Shown here one piece after another: positions 19,189 through 55,621 of a stretch of DNA of 64,000 nucleotides. The first letter of the stretch is position 1. Each line of letters opens with the position of its first letter. The stretch is from Tridacna crocea (taxonomy: Eukaryota; Mollusca; Bivalvia; Cardiida; Cardiidae): contig OX031062.1 of assembly GCA_943736015.1 (NCBI GenBank), positions 3,392,501 through 3,456,500 of the forward strand, read 5' to 3'. A program made the translations under genes and the position numbers. Under the pieces are notes generated by a model. That model saw nothing but the letters and a program-made list of their open reading frames with translations, was not told the DNA's origin and did not search any database.

Positions 19189-19215
19189 TTACCATCGCCG
19201 TCTTTCAGGCTTTTT
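19189..19215 (-). CDS. Probable last coding exon (KKPERRRW, stop)
   Basis: T-rich tract and TATACAG acceptor, then an open frame of KKPERRRW and TAA in the phase expected after A1. The KKxP start resembles the C linker. This is the only candidate stop exon I found between A1 and the retroelement. Its shortness makes the call tentative. Confidence 0.55.
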   Translation of the reverse strand, partial: KKPERRRW

Positions 19216-22200
19216 CTGTATAAACAAAATAATATAATACCACAAGGTTAAGTCTACAAGCTACAAAATTTTGATCTGTGCGAAATGAAAGCAGTTACAG
19301 GCGTCACAAGTATCAAATGGAAGTCAAACAAGAGTACCAAATCCTGGTGCCAACTCCCGAGTGCAAGTCCTTGGATTTTTAATGAAAAGCTTAAGATGTT
19401 TGAGATGTAACTGTGTCAAAAATATTTCGATGGTTTAAATGCCCTTGTTTTTATGACTTTCCATTTTATTAGTTAGTGACTTGTATAAGTTTTCAGTTTT
19501 TATCTACTGTAATAACAAAGATATTGCAAAATATAAAAAGAAATCGGTTTCCTGGTCACTAGCAGTACCTCCTTTCTCCCTTAATGATTTCCAGCCTATT
19601 ACCAACGTGTCCAAGAATTGATAGTATTGCCCCTTTTCTGCAAGTTATATCACTAATGAATAAAAGATGTTTAAATATGATACAAATCCCAAAATAGATT
19701 AGTTTCCCTGAATTTGTCATCGAGAAATACTTTCAATATCTTTAACAGTAGACAAATATCAGTTACTTCCCTTGATACTTCTCTGCTACTTCATAGATCA
19801 CGAATGAGGTATTACTTAGTTTCATCTTTGATATCCTTTGCACTATATGAATGTCTACATTTAAATAATTCCTTCATCATTTGCCAAACTACAAATTTGA
19901 TCAACTTAACCGTCTAACATTTCGATGTCGATAGTGTGTAAAGTTCAATTTGCAAACGTTATTAAGATCTAATTTATGCATCACAAGTCGAAATAAATGA
20001 TCGCAACATCTAGTAATGTAAGAATAAAAAACAAGAGGGCCATTGGCCCTGGAACGCTCACCTTAGACTATAGCTTATGAGTGAAATTCAATTATTTGAG
20101 CAACTTTGGTAAAGCTTCACCCAAGGAACATCCCTGCCAAGTTGCATCAAGATTGGCCCAGTGGGTTAGGAGAAGAAGATGTTTAAAGAAATTGTTGACG
20201 GGCGACAGACGCCGGACATAGGGCAATCAAATATCATAAAGCTCTACACCTTCCAGTTTCAAAGAAGCATTTTACATTTTCCTTTTTTGTCCTATGTTCG
20301 AACTTGTGGTCCCCGGGGCTGGGTCAGTTTTAACCAAAGCAGCATCCTTGGAACAAACTTGGTAGAGGTCCACTCAAAGATGCTACATACCAAGTATCAA
20401 GGCTCTACACCTTCCCATTTAAGACAAAAAAACATTTAAAATTTTCCTTCTTTGTTCCTATGTTCGAACCTGTGACCTCCGGGGCAGGGCCGGTTTAAAC
20501 GCCAGGGACATCATATGACCAAACTTGGTAGAGGTCCACTAGAAGATTCTGCATACCAAACATCAAAGCTCTTCACCTTCAAGCTTCAGAGAAGATTTCT
20601 AAAGTTTTCCTTCTTTGTTGCTATGTTCGAACCTGTGACCTCCCGAGGCAGGGCCAGTTTTGACCCCAAGGGCACAATATGAACAAACTTGGTAGAGATC
20701 CACTAGGAATTGCTACATGCCAAATATCATAGCTCTATGCCTTCTAGTTATAGAGAAAAAGAATCTTAAAATTTTCTTTCATTGTTCCTATGTTCGAACT
20801 TGTGACCCCCGGGGCAGGGCCAGTTTTGACCCTACGGGCATGATTTGAACAAACTTGGTAGAGGTCCACTAGGAGATGCCACAAATCGAATATCAAAGCT
20901 CTATGCCATCTAGTTTCAGAGAAGAAGAAATTTAAAGTTTTCCTTCTTTGTTCCTATGTTTAAACTAGTGACCCCCGGGGTGGGGCCAGATTTGACCCCA
21001 GGGACATTATTTGAATAACCTTGGTTGAGGTCCACTAGGAGATACAACAGACCAAATATCAAAGCTCTATGCTTTCTAGTTTCTGAGGAAAAGAATTTTA
21101 CAGTTTTCCTTCTTTGTTCCAATGCTCAAACTTGTGATCCCCGGGGTGGGGCCAGTTTTGACCCCAGGGACATAATTTGAACAAACTTGGTAGAGGTCCA
21201 CTAGGAGATACAACAGACCAAATATCAAAGCTCTACGCCTTCAAGTTTCAGAGGAGAAGATTTTTAAAGTTTTCCTTCTTTGTTCCTATGCTCAAACTTG
21301 TGACCCCTGGGGTGGGGCCAGTTTTGACCCCAGGGACATAATTTGAACAAACTTGGTAGAGGTCCACTAGGAGATGCTACATACCAAATATCAAAGCTCT
21401 ACCCCTTCAGGTTTCAGAGGAGAAGATTTTTAAAATTTTCCTTCTTTGTTCCTATGCTCAAACGCGCTAAAACGCGTTATCCCCCGGGGCGGGGCCAGTT
21501 TTGACCCTATGGGCATAATTTGAACAAACTTGGTAGAGGTCCATTGGGAGATGCTACATACCAAATATCAAACCTCTACCCCTTCTACTTTCAGAGGAGA
21601 AGATTTTCAAAGATTTCGTTTTTTTTTTTTTTCGTTTTGTTGCCATGGCAATCAGAGTTATGGGTGGAATTAAATTCTTTGAACAATTTTGGTAGAGCTT
21701 CACCCAAGGAACATTCCTGCCAAGTTTCATGACGATTGGCCCAGTGGTTTAGGAGGAGAAGATGTTTAAAGAAATTGTTGACGGACGACGGACGCCGGAC
21801 ATTGGGCGATCACAATAGCTCACCTTTAGCACTTTGTGCTAAGGTGAGCTAAAAAACAAAGGAAACCAACTAAAAGGACCTAGTTGAAAGTTGGTATCCA
21901 TGGTATTGATCTTACAAGGGAGATAGTATGGTTCTCACTCCCCCACCCCCTCCTTCCCCTAAGTTTGTTTTTTACGCAATTTCAAAAGGATACTAAATGT
22001 AAAACTAAACCAAACTGCGCATTTAGATGTCTGACTTGATAGCAATTGAATCTAACCACTTACGAGCATTTTAGCCAATTCTCTGCACACATCTTCAAGA
22101 TCATCTTCATCAAAATCATCGTCTCTCTTCTCGTCATCATCCAAAGCTTCACAGAGAGCGATCAGTTCTTCTACTTCTTCTTTTGTTGGCATATCATCCT

Positions 22201-25200
22201 GGAAAGTAGTGAAGTAAAATGTTTTTTAGCACATGTATGTAAGTCATCCTGTCGCAAAAAAGGCTTAATGTATCTCCGTGATGCATGATACCTGTCGAGC
22301 ATCAAGACGTCCCACCTTTTAGAAAATTATTAGTTTTGTTACGGAGGAGAGTGCAATGTGCAGGGCGAAAGCCATGCAAATTTTAGCCTGCTACTTTTAG
22401 TTACTCAGTGTATTAACTCATCAGACAACACCTATGTTTAAAGTCAGCTCCGAGATGAATCTATTCATTTTATTTACTCAACTATAGGGCTCGTTTTCAG
22501 GCCTTTAAAAGATTCAAGAATTGGTTTCCACTTGAGCTGTGCGGGCTGATTGATGCATGTAATGAATGATTTTGCTTTCATTACATCCCCTAAGATTTTG
22601 TTTCGAAGAACGGTGCAAGATTTCAAGTCATTTAAAGTTATGTCCGATTCTCTATTCTGTCACTGTACCACACCATCACAGAGGACGTCGGGTTTAACCC
22701 TGTACCACACAATGACGACTTTTAACGCCCCTGAAAGAGAGGGCTTTTGAAAACATTGTAGGAAAAGGAGAACTGGTGGTAACCAGCATTTCCTCCTTTT
22801 CCCACAATGTTTCTACCATCAAAGAATAATAATTTCATATGAGCCACATTGAAACTGTTATCAGCAAATGCCTTTCACTCGGACAGGTCTAAAATCTTGT
22901 CATGTGGTAAAAGGTTAACAAGCATCTGTAAGTTATGTAACAGCCTCCGCTGAGACACCTCCAACAGTTTGGCATGTTTATCTAACTTGCACTTATCAAA
23001 TGGAGTGCAACACGCGAAAAGGTGCATTCGGACATTTGCGTAAAGTGTCGTCCCGGATTAGCCTGCGCAGTCCGCGCAGGCTAATCCGAGACGACACTTT
23101 ACGACTACATTAGATTTTGTGCAACAGTAGACTTGCGTTAAACAGAAAATCACATAAAATCGGAAAGTGTCGTTTCGGATTAGCCAGTGCGGACTGCAAA
23201 ACCCTGATGCGAGACGACACTTTACGCAAATTTCCGAATGATCCTTTTCGCGTGTTGCAAGCCAAATGGGGATAATAATGCGAACCATTACATTTAAGCC
23301 TCAGCAAAGCCAAACAATTGGTATTTTTTACTGTTTATTACTCGAAAAGATAACGAATTACCCACAACACATTTATAAATATTAAAAGATCGGAGTAAAC
23401 CCGAATATGCCAGTTACTGCATTGGATGACATGATATACGCGAGCCAAAATGCATGGAGAAGCCCATCGATTTCAGGGTCGCCATTGATCAAAATAACCT
23501 TCGGTATCGTTCATGTTATATTCGAACTCTAGAGGTCTTCGAGAACGTCACCTGATAACATTGCATCTCATTAGTGCTCATTAACTAGTGCTAGGCTGTA
23601 GTTATACAGGACTACTGTTTACATTTCCAATATAATGCAAGATTGCTCATTCTGAACCTGTTTTCTTATTTCGATGTAGGAAACTCTACCTGTAGTGATG
23701 ATAAACAAATAAGTGACCTGCCTTCGTTATTTCCGTTTACAGTGTAGATGAACATGGTTTTTGAGGCCTAGTTGGGGACAAAATGATCAAGTGAATGAAA
23801 GTTTTATTTCGACACACTGAATTATCACATGTTGTTTAAGTCACCATTAAGTCACTGCAGAGATTTACAAAGAAAAGACGGCTAGCCCTAATCGTTGGAG
23901 ATCATCGATGTAAACAAACAGATAATTCGGCATGGTAGGATCTGTTTTGGTTTCAAAATTCTTTTTTCTGCCTATTGACTAGAACTTTTACGACTGTACT
24001 TTTACATATCGTTAAATTCATAAAAGTTGCCATATTTTCATATGGTACGAATGAAATTTTACATTTATTTTATAAATAGGCCATTTTGCATATAGACGTT
24101 ACTGAGACTAAATTTTCTTTTATAAACATCTATGGAAAATTTACTTGATAAAAAAATGAAAAGCATTCAATTAAACTAGAGAGGTTAAGAAAATAGAATC
24201 CAACAATTTACGGATTCGTGAACAGAATGCATCTTATGTGCTCATTGGACTTGATCTACACTTTTGCACAAGGTGCAATTAACCATGCTTAGCGGCCAAA
24301 AGGTTATTTTTTTGTCAAGCGTGCTTACCTTGCTTGGTGGGGGAAGAGTGTTTCCATCAGCATCAGTCTTTGGAGGTCTTGGTCCTTTAACCTGTTCAAA
24401 GTATAGCGAAATTAGTTTTACCTATCTGGGAAGTCAATCCTTATCCTGGTAAATAAGTAAAATGAAACATTCAAACCGATAGTATGAACCAAATATCATA
24501 ACTTTTCAAAGGTATGGGGGAGTATCTGCTTAACGGACAGTGTAAAGCCAAGATCAGGTTGCACGTTTTGTGCAGTCTGCCCTTCATCCACGATGTCCGC
24601 AAAAGGTCCTTGAGTCATGCTAAGTAGTCTAAAAAGTAGGTTAAAAAAAATGGCATATTTTGTTGTAAGGTATTTTGTCAGATTTGATTTTTAGAAATGA
24701 AAATATTGCACAACGTTTAATTTTTATCATATATTTCAATGTAATGTGCCTGTCTCTCTCTCTCTCTCTCTCTCACTATCTGTGTATGTCACACACACCT
24801 ACACACATAACCGTCTTTTTCAACTGGCTCAGCCTTGGGTAAAAATCTTTTACTCAAATAAGAAAATAGATATTTACCCTTTTGCTGGCTTCTGTTGGTT
24901 TTGGTCCTTTTTTCTGAAAAGAGAAAAAAGAGTTTACCGCCCAGCCAGTATAAGTGGTTATTTCTATGGAACAGTTGCCCATGCTAGAAAATCATTTTAG
25001 CTAGTTCACAAATGGGCTTTGGGTGAAAACCAGTTTTGATAAGAGATCTTTATTGTTTCTTCCCTTGACTGGCTACTGTACACAGCTTCTGCTGTACGAC
25101 TGAATAGCCACCAAAAGTTTCTTCCCTTGACTGGCTGCTGTAGACAGTTATAACTGTGCGACTGAAGCTGTCTTTAATAGCCACCACAGGAGAAAGAAGG

Positions 25201-28200
25201 ACATTACCTCTTTTGGCAAGAAAAAATGCGTAAATCCTATACCAAGTTTACTGTATGAGACCTTGAGAAAAAAAAAAACGACTAAAAAACGTACTGCAAA
25301 AATAAAGAATGCACCTAAACTTTTCCCTTTTTTTCCAAAATATCTCTCTTTTCATACGCATAGGTCTGTCATTCACACTTAGCCGTCAGTCGATGGCAAA
25401 TTCTTTTACTTTGAACAAATCTAAGGCTTACTGTCTGGTGAGGAGTTATGTCTTGTTATCTTATTTTTCACCAAACTATCCACTGTTTTTTGTAATCTTC
25501 AGGAATAAGGTTTTGAAAACACTATTGCGAAGGGAAAAAAGGACAAACTAGATCAACTGGTAACCCAACATCATTCCAAGTATGAACGACCATGGAGAAG
25601 ACGGCTTTTAAAACCTTTTAGAAATCGGAGAAAATGATTAACTCATTACCAAACGACAATATTATAGACTTGGCCAAATTGAAAGTATATGCAGATGACA
25701 AAATAAAAGTGATAGAAAATTTGAAATTTGTTTTGTGAAGGGTAGAAAACATTGAGGGAAAAGCAGACAATGCTGATTTCCAGCATTTTCTCCTTTTCCC
25801 ACAATGTTTTCTGAAGGCTTCTTTCTCTGGGGGGGTCAAAAGTAGGGATTGTGTGGTAATGGGTTAAAGACAGAAATCATATTTTGAGCTGAATTATACT
25901 TCTTGTCTGCAAATACTTCCAATTTGGCTGAGTCCAAAGTTTTGTCGTTTGGTATAAAGGTAAGCACTGTAATCACGTTACATTTATCACACTGCTTCTT
26001 CAAAAGCCGTCTCCCTTGATGTCAGTAAAACATTAGAGGATATTTGATTTTTGTGGGTGAAAGATAGAAATTTATTTCATCTTGTGAACATCATCGGTAA
26101 TATTTATAAGAGTCGCACATCTTTCATTAGAAATAGAATTTTTTTATTTATTTCATACATCTATCGCCATTTTGTGTTGGGACTTTCATGAAAATTCAGT
26201 ACCATTGTTTTCGGTAATTCCCCACGGTGTACCTCCCTAAACATAAGGCAGTGTACTATTACGTAAAGCACGTAGGGTAAGTGTATGTAAATTACGTCCT
26301 TTAAAGGTAAACATTCAAAACGCATTGCACGATTACGTAAAGCATGATAAATGTAGGTTTATGTGTGTAAATTAGGTCATATTTCAGTGTAATTGAATGA
26401 CACGCAATGTTTGCCGAAATAACTAGAGAACTATCTCTGATTGAAATGTTACAAAACAATTAATGATAAATTTCACTGGTCGTAGTCATGAATTATCAAA
26501 TCCTGTAATGCACAATTCTTTTGCGAGAAAAATAATGAAAAGGTTAAAAAACTTACGAGCATCTTAGCCAATTCTCTGCACACATCTTCAAGATCATCTT
26601 CATCCAAGTCATCGTCTCTCTTCTCGTCATCAGCCAAAGCTTCACAGAGAGCGATCAGTTCTTCTACTTCTTCTTTTGTTGGCATATCATCCTAGAAAGT
26701 AGTGAATTATATGATTTTTTAAGCACTTGTATGAGAGTCATCCTGTCGCAAAAAGGTTTTAATGCATCTCTGAGATGCATGATATGTAGCGAGTATTAAG
26801 ACGTCCCACCTTTTTGAAGGTTGTTAGTTTATTACGGGGTATATAGTGCAATGTGCAGGGCGAAAGCCATGAAAATTTACGCCTGCTACTCAAACGTACT
26901 CGATCCATTACATCAGAAAACACCTATGTTTAACGTCAGCTCCGAGATAAATCTATTCATCTTACTTAGTCAACTGTGGGGCTCGATCTCACGCCCTTAA
27001 AAGACCTAAGGCTTGGTTTTTACCAGAGCTATGCGGGCTGGTCGATGCATGTTATGATTGATTCTGCTCTCAGTTATCGTGGCTATCGGTGGCTCAAATG
27101 GACAGCACTCTCTGAGATTTTGTTACGAAGGATAAAACAAGATTTCAAGTCATTTAAAGTTATGCCTAATTCTCTATTCTGTCGGTATACAGCACCATCA
27201 CACGGGACACAGTTTTAAGAAGCATCCGAAAGTTGTGTAACACCCTCCGCTGATTTACCTACACAGATACCTTCAACAGTTTGGCATGTTTATCTAATTA
27301 GCATTTATCAAATGGGGATAATAATGCAAACCATTACATTGAAGCTTTTGTAAAGCCAAAGAATAGGTATTTTTTACTATTTATAACTCGAGAATTTAAC
27401 GGATGACCCATCCAAACACACATATATTTAAGATTGAAGAAAGTCCACACGTGTCAGTTACTGCATCTTCTGTGCTCGTTGAGCTTGATCTACACTTTTG
27501 CACGATGTGCAATGAACCATGCTTAGCAGCCAAATGGTTAATTGTTTGGTAAGTGTGCTTACCTTGCTTGGTGGGGGAAGAGTGTTTCCATCAGCATCAG
27601 TCTTTGGAGGTCTTGGTCCTTTACCCTGTTCAAAGAAAAGTATAGCGAAATTAGTTATATCTATCTGGGAAGTCAATCCTTATCCTGCTAAATAAGTAAA
27701 ATGAAACTTTCAAGCCGATAGTATGAACCAAATACCATAACTTTTCAAAGGTATAGGGGAGTATCTGCTTATCGGACAGTGTAGAGGCAAAATCAGGCTG
27801 CACGTTCTGTGCAGTCTGCCCTTCATCCACGATGTCCGTAAAAGGTTCTTGAGTTGTCTAAGGGTAAAAAAATAAAAATAATGGCATATTTTGTTAAACG
27901 TACTTTATCAGATTTTATTTTTTATGTATGAAAATATTGCATAACTGATTTTTCATCATATATTTAAATGTAAAGTAAGTCTCACTCGCCATCTCTCTCT
28001 CTCTCTCTCTCACCCCGTCTTTCTCAACTAACTCAGTATGTGGGTGAAAAATCATTTACTTAAATAGGAAATAGATATTTACCCTTTTGCTGGCTTCTGT
28101 TGGTTTTGGTCCTTTTTTCTGAAGAGGGAGAAAAAAATTACATCCACACCAATATAAGTGATCAATTTTATGGAAAAGTCATCCATCCTAGCAAATCATT

Positions 28201-38092: not shown

Positions 38093-38129
<37 letters not shown>

Positions 38130-39390: not shown

Positions 39391-39434
<44 letters not shown>

Positions 39435-42400
39435 ATCCCGTCTTTCTCAACTGGCTCAGTCTGTAGGGAAAACAATCTCTTACTCAAATATAAAAATAGA
39501 TATTTACCCTTTTGCTGGCTTCTGTTGGTTTTGGTCCTTTTTTCTGAAGAGAGACAAAAAGATTTTACAGCCAAACCAGTATAAGCGTCCACTTCTATGG
39601 AACAGTCACCCATGCTAGCAAATCATTTTACCTAGTTAATAAATTTGGGCTTTAGGTGAAAACCAGTTTTTATAAGAGGTCTTTATTGTTTCTTCCCTTG
39701 ACTGGCTGCTGTAGACAGCTTCTGCTGCACGACTGAAGTTGTCCTTAATAGCCACCAAAAGTGAAAAAAAGGACTTGATTTCTTTTGGCAAGTAAATGTG
39801 TAAACCCTTTACCATGTTTACTGTGTGAGACATTGAGAAAAGAAAAAGACTTAAAAACTTACTGCAAAAAGAGAAAATGCACCACCTAACCTTTTCTCTT
39901 TTTTTCTCATAATTATGTATAAATGTATTATATATATATTTTTAGTATACAAGAAACTTTTGCCATGTAATTCCGCTGAAAATGCCTACCAGCATTTTTG
40001 CCAATTCCATGCAAACTTCTTCCAGGCTGGGATCATCGTCTCTCTTGTCGCCGTTTTTCAAGGCCTCACATTGAGCAATAAGTGCTTCTACTTCTTCTTT
40101 TGATGGTTTTGGCTGGTCGCCCTGGTAACCAAATGAGAAAACAATTCAGAAAGCATTAACCCTTATCCGGCTATATAACTAATTTTTTAATTCGATATTG
40201 ACAACCCAATCATTGCTGCTTCAAAGTTATGTTTTGGGGAATAATTTCTCCTTATCGGATAGTGTAGATCAAAGATCAGACTACACGTTCTATTATCGTG
40301 TTGTTAAGCACTGATAATAAAACAGAAATAGCAGAAAATATATATTCTATTTATACCACATCTTGATAAATACCACATTTCGCTTGAAATAAAGCTCATA
40401 ATTGACATTCATTCTGTAAATTTGAAAAAAAAATCTAGGCTAGATTATTTAAAATATTTAATAGAAAATCCAAGAATTCATGTGATCAGAATAGGAACAT
40501 TTACAGGAAATAATCCTTTCTATGTGATATTGTTCAAAAACGATAAATAAATCAAATAGGGACAGATACAAAGATAATTTCTCAGGAGGTACTTTAGACT
40601 TTGATCGACGATCTTGAACGGGGTGATTTTTTTGTCATGGACACTTTGGATAACGCATGCATCGCAAAAATTGAAACATTTTGCTTGTCACCTTGAGACT
40701 TCGAACTTCGAATTATCGAGGTTTTACCGTAGATATTTCATATCTAAGACGGTTTTCAAACGTTATCATTAAAATATTGCAAATATTGCAAAACTTTTGG
40801 TTTTTTTTAATCATATATTTTTCAATGTAAAGTGACTCTCTCTCTCACCATGTCTTTATCAACTTGCTCAGTCTGTGGAGAAAAAAATCATTTATTCAAG
40901 TTAGAAAATAGATATTTACCCTTTTGCTTGCTTCTGTTGGTTTTGGTCCTTTTTTCTGAAGAGAGAGAGAAAGATTTTACAGCTCAGCCAGTATAAGTGT
41001 TCTATGGAACAGTCACCCATGCTAGCAGATCAGTTTACCTAGTTCCAAATTTGTACTTTGGGTGAAAACCAATTTTTATAACGGGGCTTTATTGTTTCTT
41101 CCCTTGACTGACTGCTGTAGACAGGTTGTGCTGTACGATTGAAGCTGTCTTAAATAGCCACCAAAGGCGATAAAAGAACATGACTTCTTTTTTTTTTTTT
41201 TTTTTTTTTAAGTAGATGTGTAATCCTTTTCTGAAGAGAGAGAGAAAGATTTTACAGCTCAGCCAGTATAAGTGTCCACTTCTATGGAACAGTCACCCAT
41301 GCTAGCAGATCATTGTACCTAGTTCACAAAGTTGGGCTTTGGGTGAAAACCATTTTTTATAAGAGGTCTTTATTGTTTCTTCCCTTCACTGACTGCCATA
41401 GACAGCTTCCGCTGTACGACTGAAGCTGTCTTAAATAGCCACTAAAAGTGATAAAAGAACATGATTCTTTCGGCAAGTAAATGTGTTATCCTTTACCAAG
41501 TTTACTGTATGAGATCTGAGGAGAATGAAAAAAAGACTTAGAATCGAACTGCAAAAAGCGAAAATGCCCTAACCTTTTCTCTTTTTTCCACATAATTATG
41601 TATATAAGTATTATATATTTTTTTTAGGTATACAAAAAACTTTTGCCATGTAATTCCTCTGAAAATTCCTACCAGCATTTTTGCCAATTCCATGCAAACT
41701 TCTTCCAGGCTGGGATCATCGTCTCTCTTGTCGCTGTTTTTCAAGGCCTCACACTCAGCAATCAGAGCTTCTACTTCCTCTTTTGATGGTTTTGGCTGGT
41801 CGCCCTGGTAACCAAATGAATAACAACCAACAATTAATTCGTGTCAAAAGACATTAACTCTTATCTTAAAATATAACTAAAAGTAAATTTTCAATTCTAT
41901 ATTAGTAATTCAAATTTGCTCCTTCAAAAGTTATGTTTCGGGAAATAGTATCTCCTTATCGGACAATGTAGATCAAAGATCAGACTGCACGTTCTGTGCA
42001 GTCTGATCTTGATCTACACTGTCTGCAAAAGGTCAGCTGGTCGCGTTTAGCAATCAAAGGGTTAACCACTAATAATAAATTAGAAATAGCATAACATAGA
42101 TCTATATTCTATTTATACCATATCATGATAGATACCACATTTTGCTTGAAATAAAGCTTATAATTGACATTTTTCTATAACTTTGAAAAAAAAATTCTAG
42201 GCTAGATTATTTAAAATATTTAATAGAAAATCCAAGAATTCATGTGATCGAAACAGTAACATTTACAGAAAATAATCCTTTCTATATGATATTGTTCAAA
42301 AACTATAAATAAATAAATCAAATAGGGACAGATACATAGATGTATTTCTCGGAAAGTACTGTAGACTTTAATCGATGATCTTGAACGGGGTGATTTTTTT

Positions 42401-45400
42401 AAAGACACTTTTGATAATTCATCCATCGCGAAATTAGAACATTTTGCTTGTCAGCTTGGGACTTCGAATTATCGAGGTTTTACTGTAGATATTTCATATA
42501 TAAGATGGTTTTCAAACGTTATAATCAAAATATTGCAAATATTGCAAAACCTTTCTTTTTTACCATATATTTCAATGTAAAGTGTCTCTCTCTCTCTCTC
42601 TCTCTCTCTCCCACCCCGTCTTTCTCTACTGGCTCAACCTGTGTGAAAAAAATATTTTACTCAAATAAGAAAAAACGTATTTACCCTTTTGCTGGCTTCT
42701 GTTGGTTTCGGTCCTTTTTTCTGAAGAGAGAGAAAAAGATTGTACAGCCTAACCAGAATAAGTGGTCACTTCTATGGAACAGTCATCCATGCTAGCTAAT
42801 CATTTTACCTAGTTAATAAATTTGGGCTTTGGGTGAAAACCAGTTTTAATAATAGGTCTTTATTGTTTCCTCCCTTGACTGGCTGCTGTAGATACGTTCG
42901 GCTATACGACTGGAGTTGTCCTTAATACCCGCCAAAAGTGAAAAAAAGACATGACCTTTTTAGGCGAGTAAATGTTTAAACCCTTGACCAAGTTTACTGT
43001 ACGAGACATTGAGAAAAAAAAAAAGAAACGTACTGGAAAAAGAGAAAATGCACCTAAAATTTTCTCTTTTTTTCCACAGATGTATAAAAGTATTATGTAT
43101 ATTTTTAATATACAAGAAACTGCTGCCACGCATGTATTACTCTCAGATGCTATCAGTGTCTTTTTACCGTCGATTGACCTCATAATAGTAGGGGAAACAG
43201 GTAGTCTGTTCTGCTGAAATGTCCGCTGTACTATGTAATGAAGCGATGTATTTTACCTGTTTTACCTTTTATGTGTTTGTTTTGGTATGTCATGTATGTC
43301 AACAAAGGCTAAAATTATCATCTGAGAGTAATAATTCCTCTGAAAATTCCTACCAGCATTTTTGCCAATTCCATGCAAACTTCTTCCAGGCTGGGATCAT
43401 CGTCTCTCTTGTCGCCGTTTTTCAAGGCCTCACACTCAGCAATCAGTGCTTCTACTTCCTCTTTTGATGGTTTTGGCTGGTCGCCCTGGTAACCAAATGA
43501 ATGGGAGTGAACAAATAATTCTTGTCAGAACACATTAAGCACTGATAATAAAACAGAAATAGCAGAAAATATATATTCTATTTATACCACATCTTAATAA
43601 ATACCACATTTCGATTGAAATAAAACTCATAATTGACATTCATTCTGTAAATTTGAAAAAAAGTCTAGGCTAGATTGTTTAAAATATTCATTAGAAATTC
43701 CAAGAACTCGTGTGATCAGAATAGGAACATTTACAGGAAATAATCCTTTCTATGTGATATTGTTCAAAAACTATAAATAAATAAATCAAATAGGGACAGA
43801 TACAAAGATAAATTTCTCGGGAGGTACTTTAGACTTTGATCGACGATCTTGAACAGTGTTATTTTTTTTACATGGACACTTTGGATAATGCATGCATCGC
43901 AAAGAATGGAACATTTTGCTTGTCACCTTGGGACTTCGAATTATCGAGGTTTTACTGTAGCTATTTCATATCTAAGACGGTTTTCAAACGTTATCATTAA
44001 AATATTGCAAATATTGCAAAACTTTTTTTTTTTTATCATATATATTTCAACGTAAAGTGACTATCTCTCTCTCTCTCTCTCTCTCTCACCATGTCTATAT
44101 CAACTTGCTCAGTCTGTGGAGATAAAAAATCATTTACTCAAGTTAGAAAATAGATATTTACCCTTTTGCTGGCTTCTGTTGGTTTTGGTCCTTTTTTCTG
44201 AAGAGAGAGAGAAAGATTTTACAGCTCAGCCAGTATAAGTGTTCTATGGAACAGTCACCCATGCTAGCAGATCATTTTACCTAGTTCACAAATTTGTACT
44301 TTGGGTGAAAACCAATTTTTATAACGGGGCTTTATTGTTTCTTCCCTGGACTGACTGCTGTAGACAGGTTGTGCTGTACGATTGAAGCTGTCTTAAATAG
44401 CCACCAAAGGCGATAAAAGAACATGACTTTTTTTTTTTTTAAGTAAATGTGTAATCCTTCACCAACTTTACTGCATGAGATCTGAGTAGGATAAAAAAAA
44501 AAGACTTAGAATCGTACTGCAAAAAGAGAAATGCCCTAACCTTTTCTCTTTTTTCCACATATGTATGCATTATGTATATTTTTAGTAAACAAGTACTTTT
44601 TGCCATGCAATTCCTCTGAAAATTCCTACCAGCATTTTTGCCAATTCCATGCAAACTTCTTCCAGGCTGGGATCATCGTCTCTCTTGTCGCCGTTTTTCA
44701 AGGCCTCACACTCAGCAATCAGAGCTTCTACTTCCTCTTTTGATGGTTTTGGCTGGTCGCCCTGGTAACCAAATGAATAACAGCCAACAATTAATTCGTG
44801 TCAAAAGACATTAACCCTTATCCTAAAATATAACTTAAAGTAAATTTTCAATTCTATATTAGTAATTCAAATATTGCTACTTCAAAAGTTATGTTTCGGG
44901 AAATAGTATCTCCTTATCGGACAGTGTAGATCAAAGATCAGACTGCACGTTCTGTGCAGTCTGATCTTGATCTACACTGTCTGCAAAAGGTCAGCTGTTC
45001 ATGCTTAGCAACCAAACCAAAAAATTAAGAACTAAAAATAAAATAGAAATAGCAGAAAACAGATATTCTATTTATTCCATATCATGATAGCTACCTCATG
45101 TCGCTTGAAATGAAGCTGATAATTGACATTCTTCCGTAACTTTTAACTCTTTAACACACAATCCCGATCTTTAACAACCCTGAGAAAGAAGCCTTTTGAA
45201 AACATTGTGGGAAAAGGAAAAAAGGCTGGTAACCAGCATTTTCTCCTTTTCCCACAATGTTTTCTATCCTTGTCAACCCAAACTGCAATTGTTCAGTCTC
45301 TTTCATTTTGACAGCTGCAAATACTCTCAATTTGGACCAGTCTAAAATTTTCTCGTGTGGTAAAGAGTTAAATAAAATTAAAATATTTAATGGAAAATCA

Positions 45401-45767: not shown

Positions 45768-45822
<55 letters not shown>

Positions 45823-48800
45823 CCACCCCATCTTTCTCTACTGGATCAACTTATGTGAAAAAAAATATTTTACTTAAATAAGAAGATAGATATTTACCCT
45901 TTTGCTGGCTTCTGTTGGTTTCGGTCCTTTTTTCTGAAGAGAGAGAGAGAAAATGAGTTAACAGCCCAACCCAGTATAAGTGGTCACTTCTTTGGAACAG
46001 TCACCCATGCTAGCAAATCATTTTACCTAGTTAATAAATTTGGGCTTTAGGTGAAAACCAGTTTTCATAAGAGGTCTTTATTGTTTCTTCCCTTGACTGG
46101 CTGCTGTAGACACGTTCTGCTGTACGACTGAAGTTGTCTTAAATAGCCACCAAAAGTAATAAAAGAACATGACTTCTTTTGGCAAGTAAATGTTTTATCC
46201 TTCACCAAGTTTACTGCATGAGACCTGATGAGGAAAAATAAAGACTTAGAAACCTATTGCAAAAAAAGTGAATGCACCTAACCTTTTCTCTTTTTTTTTC
46301 ACATATGTATGCATATATGTATTATGTATATCTTTAGTGAACAAGAATTTTTTGCCATGCAATTCCACTGAAAATTCCTACCAGCATTTTTGCCAATTCC
46401 ATGCAAACTTCTTCCAGGCTGGGATCATCGTCTCTCTTGTCACCGTTTTTCAAGGCCTCACATTGAGCAATAAGTGCTTCTACTTCCTCTTTTGATGGTT
46501 TTGGCTGGTCGCCCTGGTAACCAAATAAATGGGAGTCAACAAAAAGTTCTTGTAAGAAAACATTAAGCACTGATACTAAAATAGAAATAGCAAATGTAAA
46601 ATAATAAATGTTCCTGTTTTGATAACATGAATTCTTGGATTTTCTATTAGATATTTTAAAAAATCTAGTCTAGATTTTTTTTTCAAAGTTACAGAAGAAT
46701 GTCAATTATAAGCTTTATTTCAAGCGAAATTTGGTATCTATCATGATATGGTATGAATAGAATATCTATGTTATGCTATTTCTATTTTATTGTTAGTGCT
46801 TAACCCTTTGTTTTCTTATTTGAGTAAAATATTTTTTTCACACAGGTTGAGCCAGTAAAGAAAGACGGGGTGGGAGAGAGATAAAGAGAGAGAAGGAGAG
46901 AAGAGAGAGATAGAGAGAGCCAGCGAAAGAGAAAGAGTCACTTTACATTGAAATATATATATGATAAAAAAGAAAGGTTTTGCAATATTTTCAATATTTT
47001 AATGATAACGTTTGAAAACCATCTTATATATGAAATATCTACAATAAAACCTCGATAATTCGAAGTCCCAAGGTGACAAGCAAAATGTTCCAATTTTCGC
47101 GATGCATGAATTATCCAAAGTATCCATGAAAAAAAATTACCCCGTTCAAGATCGTCAATTAAAGTCTACTGTGCTTCCCGAGCGAAATAACTGTATCTGT
47201 CCCTATTTGATTTATTTATTTATAGTTTTTGAACAATATCATATAGAAAGGATTATTCTCTGTAAATGATCCGGTTTTGATCACATGAATTCTTGGATTT
47301 TCTATAAAATATTTTAAATAATCTAGCCTAGAATTTGTTTCAAACTTACAGAAGAAAATGTCAATTATAACCTTCATTTCAAGCGAAATGTGGTATTTAT
47401 CAAGATGTGGTATAAATAGTTTTGTGCATGTCTACTGTAGCACAAAATCTAATGTAGTCGTAAAGTGTCGTCTTGGATTAGCCTGCGCAGACTAATCCGA
47501 GACGACACTTTACGCAGATGTCCGAATGTCCCTTTTCGCCTGTTGCACACCATATCAAAAGGCCATATTACTTTAGAATCCAGTCTGTTATTATAAAACG
47601 TTCTCGAAAAAAGGTGAAAATGCTGGACAGCAGCATTTTCTCCTTTTCCGACATTGTTTTAAATAGTGCTATTCCGTTGGGGGGGAAGTATTTACATGTA
47701 ACTCATTATCAAACGACAAAATTTTAGGTTGGTCCAAATCGAAAGCATTTACAGACGACAAAACAAAAGTGACTGGAATTTTGAAATTTGTTTTGTGAAG
47801 GGTAGAAAACATATTGGGAAAAGGAGAAAATGCTGGTTACCAGCATTTTCTCCTTTTCCCAATATGTTTTCTAAAGGCTTCTTTCTCAGGGTCGTCAAAA
47901 GTAGGAATTGTGTGGTAATGGGTTAAATTGAGGATTGTGTAGCTAAGAGTTAAATTACAAATACGTGCCTTTTGCCTCTTCTCTCCCATTTCAGCCATGA
48001 TAGCTGTTTGTAAATCCAAGCAGACGCCGCCAAGGCCCATAAAGACATCGTCCCATGAACGCTTATCACCATTGTATAGTTTGCTAAGCTCTTCCATGGC
48101 CTTGCATAGATCGGCGAGGGATGACATCAGAACGGCAGAAGCATCATCGAGTTCTTGCTGTGATCATTAAATATCAATTTGCACTCCATTATAAGACATC
48201 GCAGGGGAAAAAAAATAATTATTTTTTTTTCTTCTGTTCTACAAAAACTGTCGGAAAAACAGAAAATGTTGATAGCTAGCATTTTCTCTTTTCCAATGTT
48301 AATAATTGCCTAGATCTTCATACTGGCCGTAAACTCGCTTACAGCGCTTTCGCAAGATGATTTGTCCTTTATAGACAGTATGGATGAAGATAAGACAACA
48401 CATTTGTGCAGACTGACCTTGATCTTCACTCCCCGCGAAAGACCTCCGATGCGAGGCAATAATTACTATAAAAAATATTCTTCAAGTTCACCATTTTTTT
48501 TCGAATCGAAAACGTTAGGTCATGAAGGTCGTCACATAGGGGTCTGAACTTCTATAAGCACGGCTTTCCAAAATCGTGCATGTGTGCAGACTGATCATAA
48601 TCTACACTCTCGTAAAAGACATTCGGTACAAAATATAAGTATGACCCATCACACAAAAAGGGACCATCTAGGAATTCTGTACATCAATTAGATGAAAACG
48701 GATCAAGGGTAATGCAGGTCAATTTAAGCTGATAGTTCAAAAACGATTGTATAACAAGATACAATGCCCACTTTTCATACAGAAAATGTCATCAAAGCGA

Positions 48801-51126
48801 AAAGTGTCAACCTGATCAGCCTGCGCAGTTCTGGCGAGGGTTGACACTTTTCACAGTTCACAAAAGGTCCCTTTTTTGCGTGATGGGTCACAATTGTAAA
48901 AAAAAATGTCACAAACCGTGATGTCTGTCCTGGTGGGGGGGGGGAAGAGTGTGAACCAAGATTAGACTCCATCATTATGTTTGAAGGCTGATCTTAGTCT
49001 ACACTCTTGCCAGACATTCGATACGAGTGAACTAGTGTAAAAAAAAATACAAAGCTCTTCAACGTCACCATTTTCGTTCAGTTCGAGAGCTTTCGTGCTA
49101 GCATCACCAAGATCATCACACATTTCTATGAGCTCTTAAAGTGCAGCTTCCCAAAGTTGTTTGTCCTTCTCGTAGAGTGCCTCTCAAAATCAGTCTGCAA
49201 GTTATCAGATACATGTACGATATGATAATAGCCAAACAAAAAGCACAAACCTGTTCAAGTTCACCATTTCCATTAGCATCAAGGGCTTCCATCTTAGCGT
49301 CACCAAGATCGTCACAGACTTCCTTAAGTCCTGCCAAGACGGCTTCCCAGGATCGTTTGTCCTCGCTATCGTCCAATTCTTGATAAGCTTCCACTAAATT
49401 ACCGAAACCTTCACAAACTGCGTTTAAACCCAACACAAGACCCTTTCCGGCCCTTTGCAGATCATCCTGTAATATAGAGAAACCTGAGCTGAGCAGCCAC
49501 TCTTAGCAGAAACAATGCTTCCTCATAGAACTTAACACGGCTAAGTGCTTAACATAGAAGCATTCTGTGTTAAGTATTTGGCATAGCACAGAATGCTCAA
49601 CACAGAAGCATTCTAAAAACATTATTCAATTGACCTCTTCAGCTTCTCTGGCCTTCTCCAGATCTTTCAGTAATACAGTCAAATCTATGTTAAGAAGCCA
49701 CCAAGGGGAAATACAAATATTATCTTTATAAAAACAAGTGTCAGCTCAATACAGAAGCATCCACAAACTGCATTTAGAACACCATTTAAGCGTCTCCAGT
49801 TTCCTGCAAGTCATGCCTGATACTGTCCAACCATTCTCGATCGGCTATTTAATGGAACAAGCAATAATGAAAGCTGCTAGAAATGATACTATCTGATACT
49901 GATGCATATGTGTGCTCTCTTCATTATCTCAATGTATCGAAAGAGTTTTATACATGTAGCATAGTACAGTTGTTGAAAGGTAGATAGCATTCTAAACATA
50001 CTTTTGCGTTGGTTTATAATTGAAACACAGCTGGCTAAAATGTGCTAGTTTTACTAAAACAATATTAGGTGGCTAAGTTTTGTTGGATTCTCTAAAATGA
50101 AATTACGTCATTGCGGGTCGTGCTAAATTCAATGCAGTGAAATTAAATCGGCTAGATTTTCTTGGTTTAACTTGGATGATATTAAATCCTATCGGTTTTT
50201 TACTTGATTGAAATTAAATCATCTAAGTTATGCTGGTTTTACTGAAATGAAATTAAACCGGCTAAATTGTATTGGTTTTAATGAAGTGAAATTAAACCAG
50301 CTAGAGGTAATTTTAAGGTAGTTTAAAAATTAAATTACCTGACTAGGACCCTTTCTACGAAAGTGCTGAAAGTAAAAAAATTGAAATTTATATCATAAAA
50401 GTATTCCATCTTTTACTTTTACCACGCATTACCTGGTTTTAAAGCCCTTGACTAACATGGCTTTTACAAACATTGTGGGAAAGGGGTTGCTAGAATTACC
50501 TAATTTTCCCACCATTTTTTCTGCACATAAAAAAAGTCCATAAGTAGGCCTACTCCTGTTGTTTAATTAGTTGGGAATTAGCTTCTAATTTATAACCTAA
50601 AGAAATTTAATCTTCTACCATTCCAGCTAGAACTTTGGTAGTTTCTTGGTTTTAATGCCGTTTTCAACATAATTCCAGTTGCCGGTGCACCTATCCATTC
50701 TATCCAGTTTATTTTACCAATGCTTCTTTCAATATTCTTTCCGAGTAGCTGACTGCTTTCCGACATAAGGTTCCATCGAAGAATTAATAATCAGCAATGA
50801 GAGAAAAATGGATCTTATTGCAATGACTATCGCCAATCCTCGGAAAGAAATCAGGCGAGCTGGATATTCAAACGGGTGATCTAAATATGTTTTTCTTTTA
50901 TAGAATGAAACAAATTTATACATGTTTAAGTGCTGCTTACTTCGTCATGCAGAAAAATAACACTATGGTCACAGAAAAATGACAACTACATCTTGAAAAA
51001 AAGTTGGTTGTGATGATAAACATACAAATGAAAAAGAAAACATCTTAGAAATCACATAAAGACAGTACTTACAGGGGCAGCGAAGGCGACTGCCAGAATA
51101 CAGGCGGCGAGGATGAACGATCTCAT
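19189..51126 (-). CDS. Secreted tandem-hairpin precursor (EF-hand founder plus 13 two-Cys modules), 29 coding exons
   Basis: Predicted spliced gene read from 51126 down to 19189. Every internal exon begins after AG, ends before GT (one before GC), and has a length divisible by three, so all junctions are phase 0. Transcript order: signal exon, founder 1 (72 aa), founder 2 (63 aa), D6 C10 D5 C9 D4 C8 D3 C7 D2 C6 D1 C5, B4 A5 C4 B3 A4 C3 A3 C2 B2 A2 C1 B1 A1, stop exon; about 854 residues. Each hairpin has a helix with one Cys, a D/E-rich loop holding Lys-Arg, and a second helix with V-C-x-E/D-L. C and B are Lys/Pro linkers. Secretion is inferred from the signal peptide; a calcium link is inferred from an EF-hand loop at the founder 1/2 junction and from acidity. 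I do not recognise the family. Roles as a peptide precursor or an acidic matrix protein are both open. Exon-level confidence is higher than confidence in the exact full transcript. Confidence 0.8.
20035..21852. mobile_element. Non-coding element with internal 166-bp tandem repeats
   Basis: Starts GAGGGCCATTGGCCCTGGAA and ends with a hairpin GCTCACCTTTAGCAC...GTGCTAAGGTGAGC. Between near-identical flank pieces (AGCTTCACCCAAGGAACATC; AAGAAATTGTTGACGG) lie eight 166-bp units, recognised by TTCCTTCTTTGTTCCTATG at 20277, 20442, 20605, 20772, 20938, 21104, 21270 and 21436. Each unit has GTGACCCCCGGGG and AACTTGGTAGAGGTCCACTA. It lies in the last intron of the repeat gene. Confidence 0.7.
22064..22198 (-). 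CDS. Hairpin exon A1 (45 aa), last hairpin
   Basis: Reads LDDDEKRDDDFDEDD in the loop (extra Asp for Ala). Donor CTC|GTAAGT shows that at least one more exon follows downstream. Confidence 0.83.
22694..22918. mobile_element. Fold-back MITE
   Basis: TTAA at both ends; in the intron between B1 and A1. Confidence 0.65.
23001..23268. mobile_element. GTGTCG/CGACAC MITE
   Basis: GTGCAACACGCGAAAAGGTG to CGCGTGTTGCAAGCC, with both inner hairpins. Confidence 0.65.
23270..24328. other. Intron segment shared between A units
   Basis: Parts such as AAACAAACAGATAATTCGGC recur at 34680 in another A unit, so this is duplicated intron. No other feature seen. Confidence 0.4.
24329..24391 (-). CDS. Linker exon B1 (21 aa)
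   Basis: Differs from the other B exons by VKGP in place of GKGP at its first residue. Splice sites are kept. Confidence 0.8.
24878..24913 (-). CDS. Linker exon C1 (KKGPKPTEASKR)
   Basis: 36-base phase 0 micro-exon, followed in transcript direction by a (GA)n and (GT)n tract. Confidence 0.8.
25638..25867. mobile_element. Fold-back MITE
   Basis: TTAA at both ends. It is absent from the matching place in the other A units, so it inserted after duplication. Confidence 0.6.
26557..26691 (-). CDS. Hairpin exon A2 (45 aa)
   Basis: Reads EALADDEKRDDDLDEDDLED around the loop. Acceptor TTCTAG, donor CTC|GTAAGT. 135 bases, phase 0-0. Confidence 0.85.
27563..27625 (-). CDS. Linker exon B2 (21 aa)
   Basis: GKGPRPPKTDADGNTLPPPS plus Lys, with the same acceptor and donor as B4. 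Confidence 0.8.
28083..28118 (-). CDS. Linker exon C2 (KKGPKPTEASKR)
   Basis: 36-base phase 0 micro-exon between A3 and B2. Confidence 0.8.
29455..29589 (-). CDS. Hairpin exon A3 (45 aa)
   Basis: Carries two private changes, MPTKDEVEEL (Asp for Glu) and LCETLADDEKR (Thr for Ala). Cys, KR and splice sites are intact, so this unit is probably still used although its B linker is missing. Confidence 0.85.
30275..30628. repeat. Inverted-repeat array of TTCCACTTTTCGACC units
   Basis: CTTCCACTTTTCGACCT and its complement alternate about eight times, separated by GACAATTGTCAT-like palindromes. Could fold into several hairpins. Confidence 0.6.
30887..31867. mobile_element. Fold-back MITE split by a TA-inserted element
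   Basis: Left half 30887-31010 and right half 31772-31867 are the two ends of the TTAA MITE family. Its core is interrupted by the element at 31012-31770. Confidence 0.65.
31012..31770. mobile_element. Tc1/mariner-pogo-like non-autonomous element (759 bp)
   Basis: Flanked by TA on both sides. Ends CAGTCAGGCCGCGATA and, reversed, CAGTCAAACCCCGTTATAAC; further inside, ACTCAGTTAACGAC and ACTGAGTCAGTCG pair again. The CAGTCA...CGTTATA end style resembles pogo/Tigger elements. No transposase frame. Confidence 0.6.
31862..31960 (+). repeat. SINE head fragment
   Basis: TGGGTCGCTGGTTCGAATAC contains a B-box-like GGTTCGAATACC; no convincing A box. Confidence 0.3.
32834..32869 (-). CDS. Linker exon C3 (KKGPKPTEASKR)
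   Basis: 36-base micro-exon. No B exon follows it: the expected B position is lost in unrelated DNA (30.26-32.45 kb), so C3 would splice straight to A3. Confidence 0.8.
34068..34202 (-). CDS. Hairpin exon A4 (45 aa)
   Basis: Reads LIALCEALADDEKRDDDLDE then DDLEDVCRELAKML. Acceptor CTAG, donor CTC|GTAAGT. Intact. Confidence 0.85.
35184..35246 (-). CDS. Linker exon B3 (21 aa)
   Basis: Same as B4, but the last codon is AAA, so the donor is AGCAAA|GTAAGC. Frame and length (63 bases) are kept. Confidence 0.8.
35693..35728 (-). CDS. Linker exon C4 (EKGPKPTEASKR)
   Basis: The only C exon with a protein change: the first Lys codon is GAA, giving Glu. Splice sites and the terminal KR are kept. Confidence 0.8.
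37070..37204 (-). CDS. Hairpin exon A5 (45 aa)
   Basis: Acceptor CCAG|GATGATATG and donor ATGCTG|GTAAGT. It reads DDMPTKEEVEELIALCEALA, then DDEKRDDDFDEDDLEDVC and RELAKML. The two Cys are 21 residues apart, with a loop of about ten acidic residues and KR. Its donor has CTG where the other A exons have CTC. Confidence 0.85.
37654..37716 (-). CDS. Linker exon B4 (21 aa)
   Basis: Acceptor TTGAACAG|GGTAAA and donor AGCAAG|GTAAGC. It encodes GKGPRPPKTDADGNTLPPPS plus Lys. The GP-x-P start matches the C linker, while TDADGN resembles the first half of a calcium loop without its later ligands. 63 bases, phase 0-0. Confidence 0.8.
38200..38235 (-). CDS. Linker exon C5 (KKGPKPTEASKR)
   Basis: 36-base micro-exon at the boundary between the two sub-arrays: D1 is upstream, B4 and A5 downstream. 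Confidence 0.8.
38649..38780 (-). CDS. Hairpin exon D1 (44 aa), last of the D series
   Basis: Reads NGDKRDDEPSLEEVC, with Glu replacing the third Asp after KR. It ends the D-C part of the protein; the following hairpins are all A type. Confidence 0.85.
39121..39255. mobile_element. Small pogo-like MITE in D-unit intron (also 40590, 42358, 43824, 45513)
   Basis: Minus-strand ends CAGTAAAACCTCGATAATTC and CCCGTTCAAGATCG...CTACTGT form loose inverted repeats. Present at the same place in five D-unit introns and, inverted, at 47039-47176, so it predates the D duplications. Confidence 0.5.
39355..39432 (-). repeat. (GA)n tract downstream of C exons (example)
   Basis: Plus-strand CT repeat. Comparable tracts follow C1 (24752), C2 (27990), C3 (32743), C5 (38080), C8 (42583), C9 (44062) and C10 (45748-45820), with shorter ones at C4 and C7. 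In transcript sense it is a purine repeat about 80-120 bases after the C donor. Confidence 0.7.
39508..39543 (-). CDS. Linker exon C6 (KKGPKPTEASKR)
   Basis: 36-base micro-exon between D2 and D1, followed in transcript direction by a long (GA)n tract (plus-strand CT repeat 39355-39432). Confidence 0.8.
39990..40121 (-). CDS. Hairpin exon D2 (44 aa)
   Basis: Reads IAQCEALKNGDKRDDDPSL. Donor CTG|GTAGGC. 132 bases, phase 0-0. Confidence 0.85.
40920..40955 (-). CDS. Linker exon C7 (KKGPKPTEASKR)
   Basis: 36-base micro-exon with one silent change in the Ala codon. The sequence downstream of it in the window (41226-41340) repeats the region flanking its acceptor, a small local duplication. Confidence 0.8.
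41673..41804 (-). CDS. Hairpin exon D3 (44 aa)
   Basis: Carries AECEALKNSDKR, Ser in place of the Gly that precedes DKR in the other D exons. Cys positions, KR and both splice sites are kept. Confidence 0.85.
41955..42030. repeat. Hairpin repeat around CAGTGTAGATCAAGATCAGAC
   Basis: GTAGATCAAAGATCAGACTG and its complement flank ACGTTC. Full copy again at 44920-44995; partial copies at 8060, 19030, 24535, 27780, 32520, 35395, 37865 and 40265. Confidence 0.6.
42685..42720 (-). CDS. Linker exon C8 (KKGPKPTEASKR)
   Basis: 36-base micro-exon. Silent change in the Pro-Lys codons (GGACCGAAACC) shared with C5 and C10. Confidence 0.8.
43354..43485 (-). CDS. Hairpin exon D4 (44 aa)
   Basis: Reads IAECEALKNGDKRDDDPSL then EEVCMELAKML. 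The flanking intron on the downstream side is partly replaced (about 43125-43335) compared with other D units, but the exon is intact. Confidence 0.85.
44162..44197 (-). CDS. Linker exon C9 (KKGPKPTEASKR)
   Basis: 36-base phase 0 micro-exon, identical in protein to C10, between D5 and D4. Confidence 0.8.
44630..44761 (-). CDS. Hairpin exon D5 (44 aa)
   Basis: Same splice sites and length as D6. Reads IAECEAL (Glu for Gln before the first Cys), NGDKRDDDPSLEEVC. Phase 0-0. Confidence 0.85.
45143..45371. mobile_element. Fold-back MITE
   Basis: TTAA at both ends, inserted in the D5-C10 intron and absent from the same place in other D units. Confidence 0.65.
45898..45933 (-). CDS. Linker exon C10 (KKGPKPTEASKR)
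   Basis: 36-base micro-exon, acceptor CTTCAG|AAA and donor AGG|GTAAAT. It encodes 12 residues ending in Lys-Arg, a possible proprotein convertase site before the next hairpin. A (GA)n tract lies just downstream in the intron. Confidence 0.8.
46382..46513 (-). CDS. Hairpin exon D6 (44 aa)
   Basis: First D-type hairpin in transcript order. Acceptor GGTTACCAG|GGCGACC and donor ATGCTG|GTAGGA. It reads GDQPKPSKEEVEALIAQCEA, then LKNGDKRDDDPSLEEVCM and ELAKML. The two Cys are 18 residues apart with KR in the loop. The seven hydrophobic positions of the first helix (V, L, I, C, L) fit an amphipathic helix. Confidence 0.85.
46610..47420 (-). repeat. Inverted copies of D-unit intron
   Basis: 46615-46805 and 46815-47420 are reverse complements of intron DNA such as 42060-42665, including the GA/CT tract and the pogo-like MITE. 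The inverted block stops exactly beside where a C exon would stand, so no extra exon is carried. Confidence 0.65.
47426..47553. mobile_element. Half of a GTGTCG/CGACAC MITE
   Basis: Keeps one hairpin (AAGTGTCGTCTTGGATTAGC) and the right end CTTTTCGCCTGTTGCA. Confidence 0.55.
47580..47936. mobile_element. Two adjacent fold-back MITEs
   Basis: 47580-47698 is a partial core; 47699-47936 is a nearly complete copy with TTAA at its right end. The second ends 33 bases past the unusual GC donor of founder exon 2. Confidence 0.6.
47969..48157 (-). CDS. Founder module exon 2 (63 aa), EF-hand exit helix and hairpin
   Basis: Acceptor TGATCACAG|CAAGAACTC. The frame runs 63 codons: QELDDASAVL..., Cys in ADLCKAM, NGDKRSWDDVF, then GGVCLDL, ending in GEKRQK. 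The spacing between the two Cys is 27. A GT donor four bases further on (GCAC|GTATTT) would break the frame into the next exon, whereas AAG|GCACGT as a GC donor ends the exon at 189 bases in phase 0. The shared DKRSW-x2-V/V-C-x-D-L core shows homology to founder 1 and to the shorter A and D hairpins. It is the only coding exon here without a GT donor. Confidence 0.75.
48643..48892. mobile_element. MITE with GACCCATCACACAAAAAGGG ends
   Basis: Terminal inverted repeats GACCCATCACACAAAAAGGG and CCCTTTTTTGCGTGATGGGTC. An inner hairpin AAAGTGTCAACCTGATCAGC surrounds CTGCGCAG. Confidence 0.6.
49055..49175 (-). pseudogene. Decayed founder-type module exon
   Basis: Aligns codon by codon with the 3' half of founder exon 1 (DKxxWEA, then CDDLGDA, then NENG) but has an in-frame TAA at 49138-49136 and CTTTGT where the living copy has the GTTTGT donor. 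It is a dead duplicate lying in the intron between founders 1 and 2. Confidence 0.65.
49251..49466 (-). CDS. Founder module exon 1 (72 aa), hairpin plus first part of an EF-hand
   Basis: Acceptor ATTACAG|GATGAT and donor GAACAG|GTTTGT; 216 bases, phase 0-0. The two Cys (in NAVCEGF and KEVCDDL) are 32 residues apart, with EDKRSW between them. The exon ends in DANGNGELEQ. Joined to the first residues of the next exon (QE), this makes a complete 12-residue EF-hand loop with acidic or amide ligands at positions 1, 3, 5, 9 and 12, Gly at 6 and Leu at 8. It is the longest module and is the closest thing here to a recognised domain. Three decayed relatives lie beside it. Confidence 0.82.
49500..49625. 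repeat. Local repeat of AGAAGCATTCTGTGTTAAG-like units
   Basis: ACATAGAAGCATTCTG, AGCACAGAATGCTCAACACA and GAAGCATTCTAAAA repeat in direct and inverted order. Confidence 0.4.
49630..49695 (-). pseudogene. Remnant of a founder-type exon start
   Basis: Minus-strand ATTACTGAAAGATCTGGAGA parallels the acceptor and first codons of founder 1 (ATTACAGGATGATCTGCAAA), but the acceptor AG has been lost. It is followed by a short LEKAREAEE-like open frame. Confidence 0.4.
49756..49835 (-). pseudogene. Second remnant of a founder-type exon start
   Basis: Plus-strand CCACAAACTGCATTTAGAAC and TGCAAGTCATGCCTGATA match the 5' part of founder exon 1 (CACAAACTGCGTTTAAACCC, TGCAGATCATCCTG) with many changes and no usable frame. 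Confidence 0.4.
49840..51060. other. Intron between signal exon and founder 1
   Basis: 50090-50340 holds a loose tandem motif GAAATTAAATCGGCTA repeated about six times. 50640-50890 is SINE-like and shared with 56755-56990. No exon seen. Confidence 0.4.
51073..51126 (-). CDS. Signal-peptide exon (18 aa)
   Basis: Acceptor TTTCAG lies directly before ATG at 51126, and donor CCT|GTAAGT follows. It encodes MRSFILAACILAVAFAAP: a basic start, a hydrophobic core and a small-residue cleavage region, so a classical secretory signal peptide is almost the whole exon. Phase 0 at its 3' end matches every downstream exon. Confidence 0.85.
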
Positions 51127-55467: not shown

Positions 55468-55621
55468 CATATGTACCTAAGCTGGTTAAAACTTTTTATT
55501 GTGTCAAATCCATGGGAAAATGTGGCAAAAAATCGTTTATTTTTTTTTTAATAAAAACAGAAAGGGATAACGGCAGACAACCTATATATTGACCAATACA
55601 TCTTATCCTTTTGTATACGTT

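Follow-up and report, generated by a model that had tools for sequence, protein, structure and literature searches.

Precursors that carry tandem copies of small helical units have been described in plants and in nematodes. Plant alpha-hairpinin precursors contain up to 12 tandem motifs, and buckwheat BWI-2 has its reactive site directly after an arginine placed between two CXXXC motifs (both from the available parts of PMC7191063). The nematode polyprotein allergen ABA-1, as portrayed in the accessible portion of PMC3079579, is built from tandem helical units with a conserved disulfide and is cut after its synthesis. Neuropeptide and insulin-like prohormones of molluscs combine a signal peptide, dibasic sites and multiple copies, according to sections of PMC4200219.

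Here we describe an exon array of Tridacna crocea, found in a 64,000-nucleotide stretch of DNA (the window), whose predicted product resembles each of these systems in part. With alpha-hairpinin precursors, as represented by the available description of Tk-AMP-X, it would share a signal peptide, modules in tandem with linkers between them and a predicted helix-loop-helix form, a precursor that would be cut into small products, and an arginine in the loop, which is functional in some plant members. The described plant modules, however, carry four cysteines in two CX3C motifs, whereas those of the array carry two, and the Tk-AMP-X genes are intronless, while the array has one exon per module. 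With exactly two cysteines each, all 13 modules lack the CX3C-Xn-CX3C pattern that defines the plant alpha-hairpinins. The array would also have the tandemly repetitive polyprotein plan of ABA-1. In that portion of PMC3079579, the ABA-1A unit is larger, with seven helices, and the repeats have very small introns or none; an array module has two predicted helices and the introns measure about 0.4-3.2 kb. Unlike molluscan prohormones, the array shows no amidation signal, as glycine precedes none of its 24 Lys-Arg (KR) pairs, and its modules are predicted hairpins with one cysteine pair. In the family and protein searches described below, no similarity to these prohormones turned up. The two cysteines per module do not form the insulin-type pattern expected of members of the insulin family. 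Judged from sequence, the array would belong to the general kind of tandemly repetitive secreted polyproteins, a signal-like exon (assigned by eye) and tandem homologous units both being present, with one hairpin per exon as its putative novelty.

Structure of the array

The gene model runs on the minus strand from an ATG at 51126 to a stop codon ending at 19189, in agreement with the limits and strand given in the initial annotation, and comprises 30 coding exons for 863 residues with one stop (Table 1). All 30 exon lengths are divisible by three, every exon is in phase 0 and the frame is unbroken; the annotation had listed 29 in-phase coding exons, so the phase stands and the count does not. 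The 29 introns all end with AG. Twenty-eight start with GT and one, after hairpin exon Y, with GC. The next GT downstream of Y lies four bases on, and its use would shift the frame. The end of exon Y is supported because P0003, a Y-like protein described below, has valine (GTN) directly after the corresponding position; the GC after Y probably marks a GC-AG intron.

The exons are ordered as signal, e2, X, Y, six B-C pairs, A-D-C, A-D-C, D-C, A-D-C, A-D and terminal. Thirteen of them (X, Y, six B of 44 residues and five D of 45 residues) encode predicted hairpins on one plan, as had been claimed, with exactly two cysteines each, Lys-Arg in the loop and a V-C-x-x-L motif. Nearly invariant 12-residue linker exons and a leading signal-peptide exon (recognised by eye) had been claimed too and are present: nine of the ten C exons encode the same sequence. 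The four A exons encode 21 residues, identical in three of them, and two exons, e2 and the terminal one, are very small. As to the regular order proposed earlier, the repeating units are there, but full regularity is broken by the third D unit, which has no A exon. Chance would hardly account for the array, since open frames, matching phase and splice sites are found in every listed copy, and since third-position bias, low pN/pS and the relatives of X and Y encoded on other contigs (see below) point the same way.

Several other elements were observed. Within the last intron, at 20228-21616, about eight units of 166 bp are repeated in tandem, and frames at 15026-15902 (plus strand) resemble, by eye, the reverse transcriptase and RNase H of LTR retrotransposons. 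Frames containing NIVGKGENAGYQHFLLFPQCF-like text mark a dispersed repeat in the window and its flanks, at 45154-45453 (minus) and 55555-55872 (plus), among others (L009, L010, L011, L016). A block lying 60-200 nt ahead of every C exon (for example 46041-46132 and 44295-44386) is 82-92% identical among the 10 copies in 20-column bins, is better kept than most of the rest of that intron and is possibly related to splicing; as a candidate exon it was discarded, since stops occur in several copies. In unit 3, the resemblance to sequence that precedes exon A elsewhere stops, by eye, at about 32150-32450, and the break near these positions resembles an insertion or deletion.

Table 1. Exons of the array and a decayed copy, in window positions.
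Feature	Positions	Strand	Remarks
Exon 1, signal peptide MRSFILAACILAVAFAAP	51073..51126	-	ATG directly after CAG; donor GTAAGT
Exon 2 (e2), 9-residue microexon HFRRKGPSQ	50339..50365	-	CAG acceptor, GTAATT donor, phase 0
Hairpin exon X, 72 aa, loop EDKRSW, tail DANGNGELEQ	49251..49466	-	
Hairpin exon Y, 63 aa, loop GDKRSW	47969..48157	-	GC donor GCACGT
Hairpin exon B1	46382..46513	-	
Linker exon C1, KKGPKPTEASKR (shared by nine of ten C exons)	45898..45933	-	
Hairpin exon B2	44630..44761	-	
Linker exon C2	44162..44197	-	
Hairpin exon B3	43354..43485	-	
Linker exon C3	42685..42720	-	
Hairpin exon B4	41673..41804	-	
Linker exon C4	40920..40955	-	
Hairpin exon B5	39990..40121	-	
Linker exon C5	39508..39543	-	
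Hairpin exon B6	38649..38780	-	
Linker exon C6	38200..38235	-	
Exon A1, GKGPRPPKTDADGNTLPPPSK	37654..37716	-	
Hairpin exon D1	37070..37204	-	
Linker exon C7, EKGPKPTEASKR	35693..35728	-	
Exon A2	35184..35246	-	
Hairpin exon D2	34068..34202	-	
Linker exon C8	32834..32869	-	
Hairpin exon D3, unit without A exon	29455..29589	-	
Linker exon C9	28083..28118	-	
Exon A3	27563..27625	-	
Hairpin exon D4	26557..26691	-	
Linker exon C10	24878..24913	-	
Exon A4, VKGPRPPKTDADGNTLPPPSK	24329..24391	-	
Hairpin exon D5	22064..22198	-	
Terminal exon, KKPERRRW and stop	19189..19215	-	CAG acceptor
Decayed X copy, outside the model	49055..49201	-	3 internal stops; KDKQ replaces EDKR

Conservation of modules and copies

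All 26 cysteines outside the signal peptide lie inside modules, two in each with 18 to 32 residues intervening, and the linkers have none. An alignment of the 13 modules has ten columns without any variation (L, C, K, R, L, V, C, L, A, M), while D2, K8, V11, A16, E19 and K58 are nearly invariant. Lysine and arginine of the KR pair are the sole invariant charged residues, a count that represents fewer than 13 independent cases, as the modules form four classes (X, Y, B, D). The pair lies between the two cysteines in each of the 13 modules and in all three relatives described below; it is followed by Asp-Asp in 11 modules and by Ser in X and Y. The whole protein contains 24 KR pairs, encoded by five codon pairs: 13 in hairpin loops, 10 at the ends of C linkers and one near the end of Y. 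Shuffled sequences contained 5 on average and 12 at most (2000 shuffles, which ignored the repeat structure and so overstate the case). The protein is acidic (pI 4.55), with module net charges of -7 (B), -15 (D), -12 (X) and -5 (Y). Its linkers contain proline and are of opposite sign: C (+4), which ends with Ser-Lys-Arg, and A (+2).

Structure prediction suggests that the modules are helix-loop-helix units, the models being of middling confidence. AF2 placed helices at residues 6-21 and 31-44 of D5 from the single sequence (mean pLDDT 69) and at 2-31 and 37-64 of X when 13 paralogues were supplied (mean pLDDT 74). The amphipathicity of helix 1 was reached by 131 of 1000 shuffles for D, 364 of 1000 for B and 2 of 1000 for X. 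In helix 2, D and B exceeded their own shuffles (3 and 9 of 1000, respectively), and X was not clearly above them (52 of 1000).

The repeated exons are under purifying selection, the initial annotation having already argued for selection. Ratios of pN/pS among copies are 0.13 for B (n=6), 0.10 for D (n=5), 0.08 for C (n=10) and 0.17 for A (n=4), the last from as few as 6 synonymous differences and 3 others in the sum over pairs. Mean p-distances among copies are 0.024-0.043 in exons against 0.126-0.361 in the 300-base flanks, that is, 2-4% divergence of exons against 13-36% of flanking introns. Variation in the four repeated classes affects 27 columns (B 8, D 13, C 3, A 3), and 19 of these fall at third codon positions (binomial P 9e-5, columns treated as independent). 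At synonymous sites B has diverged less (0.09) than in its flanks (0.165 and 0.285), which could reflect some homogenisation of exons or another constraint.

The X copy at 49055-49201 has acquired stops and lost its KR, which implies that an unconstrained copy has decayed at this locus. Two scraps like the end of X occur at 48478-48545 (minus strand), with an E of 3.5 each, and may be due to chance. The X tail (49251-49290) and the DADGNTLPPP of exon A have a motif DA[ND]GN in common; between this tail and the A exons a 15-base DNA match was also seen (E 0.39), from which a shared origin can only be guessed.

Relatives and known families

Searches of the 1.05-Gb genome of T. crocea with the B and X modules found the locus as a single one, all match counts being lower bounds. 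B had at least 11 matches, all of them in this array (six B and five D exons), and the matches listed for X were X itself and its decayed copy. No further hairpin exon was found by tblastn in the 50-kb flanks on each side. A query with the first 162 residues retrieved, among 267 candidates, three ENA proteins without name or Pfam domain. P0001 and P0002 are X-like (82% and 81% identical to X) and come from different contigs; P0003 is Y-like (87% identical to Y). The longest contig is 2,582,106 bases for both P0001 and P0003, which suggests that the two share one contig. All three relatives keep the loop KR. The residues preceding DKRSW differ from those of X in P0001 and P0002, and in P0003 they are unchanged. 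With queries of 352 and 863 residues no match reached E 10 in the capped sets of candidates that were scored (7994 and 7991, respectively), and the length limits of the search probably put B- and D-like exon fragments beyond the reach of such queries.

None of three Pfam queries (X and Y together, two B-C units, two A-D-C units) reached a cutoff, the third as far as the best 25 of its 27 matches are concerned. EF-hand membership was discarded, with no match above the curated cutoff: EF-hand_1 scored 12.9 of 25.4 bits on X and Y, EF-hand_14 14.4 of 23.7 bits, and EF-hand_7 18.2 of 30 bits on two A-D-C units. NCBIfam returned only weak matches to the 13 modules, the best being the XXXCH domain (E 0.0077, 5 of 13 modules); this match and those to GAGE and GemA were put down to chance or composition. 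X, Y and the three relatives hit no Pfam family at E 0.1. The best E in PDB searches by sequence was no lower than 0.3, and Foldseek against PDB, run with the X model, gave a best E of 0.79 and none at 0.001. Module strings searched as literature text retrieved no paper; sequences rarely stand in running text. The available parts of the zebra mussel genome paper (PMC9210306) contain no link to the array. The statement of the initial annotation that no described family has this architecture accords with the family searches and needs qualification with regard to overall plan, which is comparable in alpha-hairpinin precursors and nematode polyprotein allergens as far as the available descriptions go.

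Proposed processing of the predicted polyprotein

The occurrence of KR in every hairpin loop and at the end of every C linker suggests a processed polyprotein. We favour, with only slightly less than an even chance, a secreted, tandemly repetitive polyprotein whose KR sites are cleaved by an enzyme of the prohormone-convertase kind, yielding helical peptides of two chains linked by a disulfide. Each module would adopt a helical-hairpin fold that its single disulfide closes. In the secretory pathway, this protease would cut after the linker-end KR and free the units, and a cut at the loop KR would open each hairpin, leaving two helices joined by the disulfide in an insulin-like manner. A single transcript would thereby supply as many as 13 two-chain peptides, which would be small and acidic and, in most cases, have basic tails. 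The cleavage preferences of PC1/3, PC2 and furin are distinct, and a PC1/3- or PC2-like enzyme rather than a furin-like one is proposed because the 863-residue protein has no RX[KR]R site. The locus had initially been read as encoding one secreted protein of 13 hairpins. A single in-phase, selected and signal-bearing model agrees with that reading, but the KR pattern points to a precursor for processing more than to a finished protein.

Conserved charge is not limited to KR, given the nearly invariant D2, K8, E19 and K58, which counts against cutting as the favoured explanation. So do the lack of an amidation signal before any KR, the middling confidence of the models, and the amphipathicity of helix 1 in D and B, which does not exceed that of their shuffles. 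The Asp-Asp after KR in 11 of the 13 loops may also make a poor cutting site, and it weakens both this reading and that of an inhibitor (below). Some prohormones with an acidic residue after the dibasic site are cut.

The main rival, possible yet clearly short of probable, is an uncut, multi-domain acidic extracellular protein of the matrix of shell, mucus, byssus or egg coat. Acidic hairpins and basic linkers would then let chains be joined by charge, disulfides or calcium, and KR would serve loop structure or charge balance. Such a protein is in keeping with the low pI, with acidic modules that alternate with linkers of basic charge and proline content, and with the weak EF-hand matches, none of which reaches its cutoff. 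On its own, however, it leaves unexplained why every C linker ends with SKR and why the loop KR is invariant. The main text of a paper on quagga mussel foot proteins (PMC6474901) does not contain the three short module strings searched, which weighs weakly against it.

Three further readings are less likely. The array could encode a multi-headed inhibitor of serine proteases in which the loop Lys-Arg is the reactive site, similarly to plant helical-hairpin trypsin inhibitors. The predicted helix-loop-helix with a cysteine in each helix and arginine in the loop, as well as the Ser after KR in X and Y, are in line with this. We nevertheless consider it unlikely: a lone cysteine pair, its members separated by 18 to 32 residues, would brace the loop less well than two pairs do, and aspartate, which is unfavourable for trypsin after arginine, holds that position in 11 of 13 loops. 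Equally improbable is a polyprotein cut only at its linkers into small helical units that carry lipids or other ligands, the loop KR remaining uncut. Its overall plan recalls the nematode polyprotein allergens, as the accessible portion of PMC3079579 presents them, but units of 44-72 residues would be small for a ligand cavity and the reading does not need an invariant loop KR. Several short separate genes, or a partly dead array, are very improbable, because the decayed X copy, the missing A exon of unit 3 and the GC donor of Y, which speak for them, are opposed by uniform phase 0 of the internal exons, low pN/pS in the four repeated classes and the lack of a second signal-like or terminal-like exon in the window and its two 50-kb flanks, where signal exons of unrelated sequence would escape.

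Returning to the polyprotein cut at KR, we tentatively raise the broader possibility, itself more doubtful than probable, of a new polyprotein family in which every hairpin is cut in its loop, and in which a single gene, with each hairpin on its own exon, supplies a set of disulfide-linked, two-chain peptide hormones or defence peptides, exon duplication and loss changing their dose and mixture. The 13 live copies keep KR and frame and the neighbouring dead X copy lost both. If the proposal is true, the array would be a convergent counterpart of plant tandem helical-hairpin precursors, built through exon duplication where the plants have a repeat without introns, and carrying a processing site within each unit, and it would present a clear case of a peptide family growing by addition of exons.
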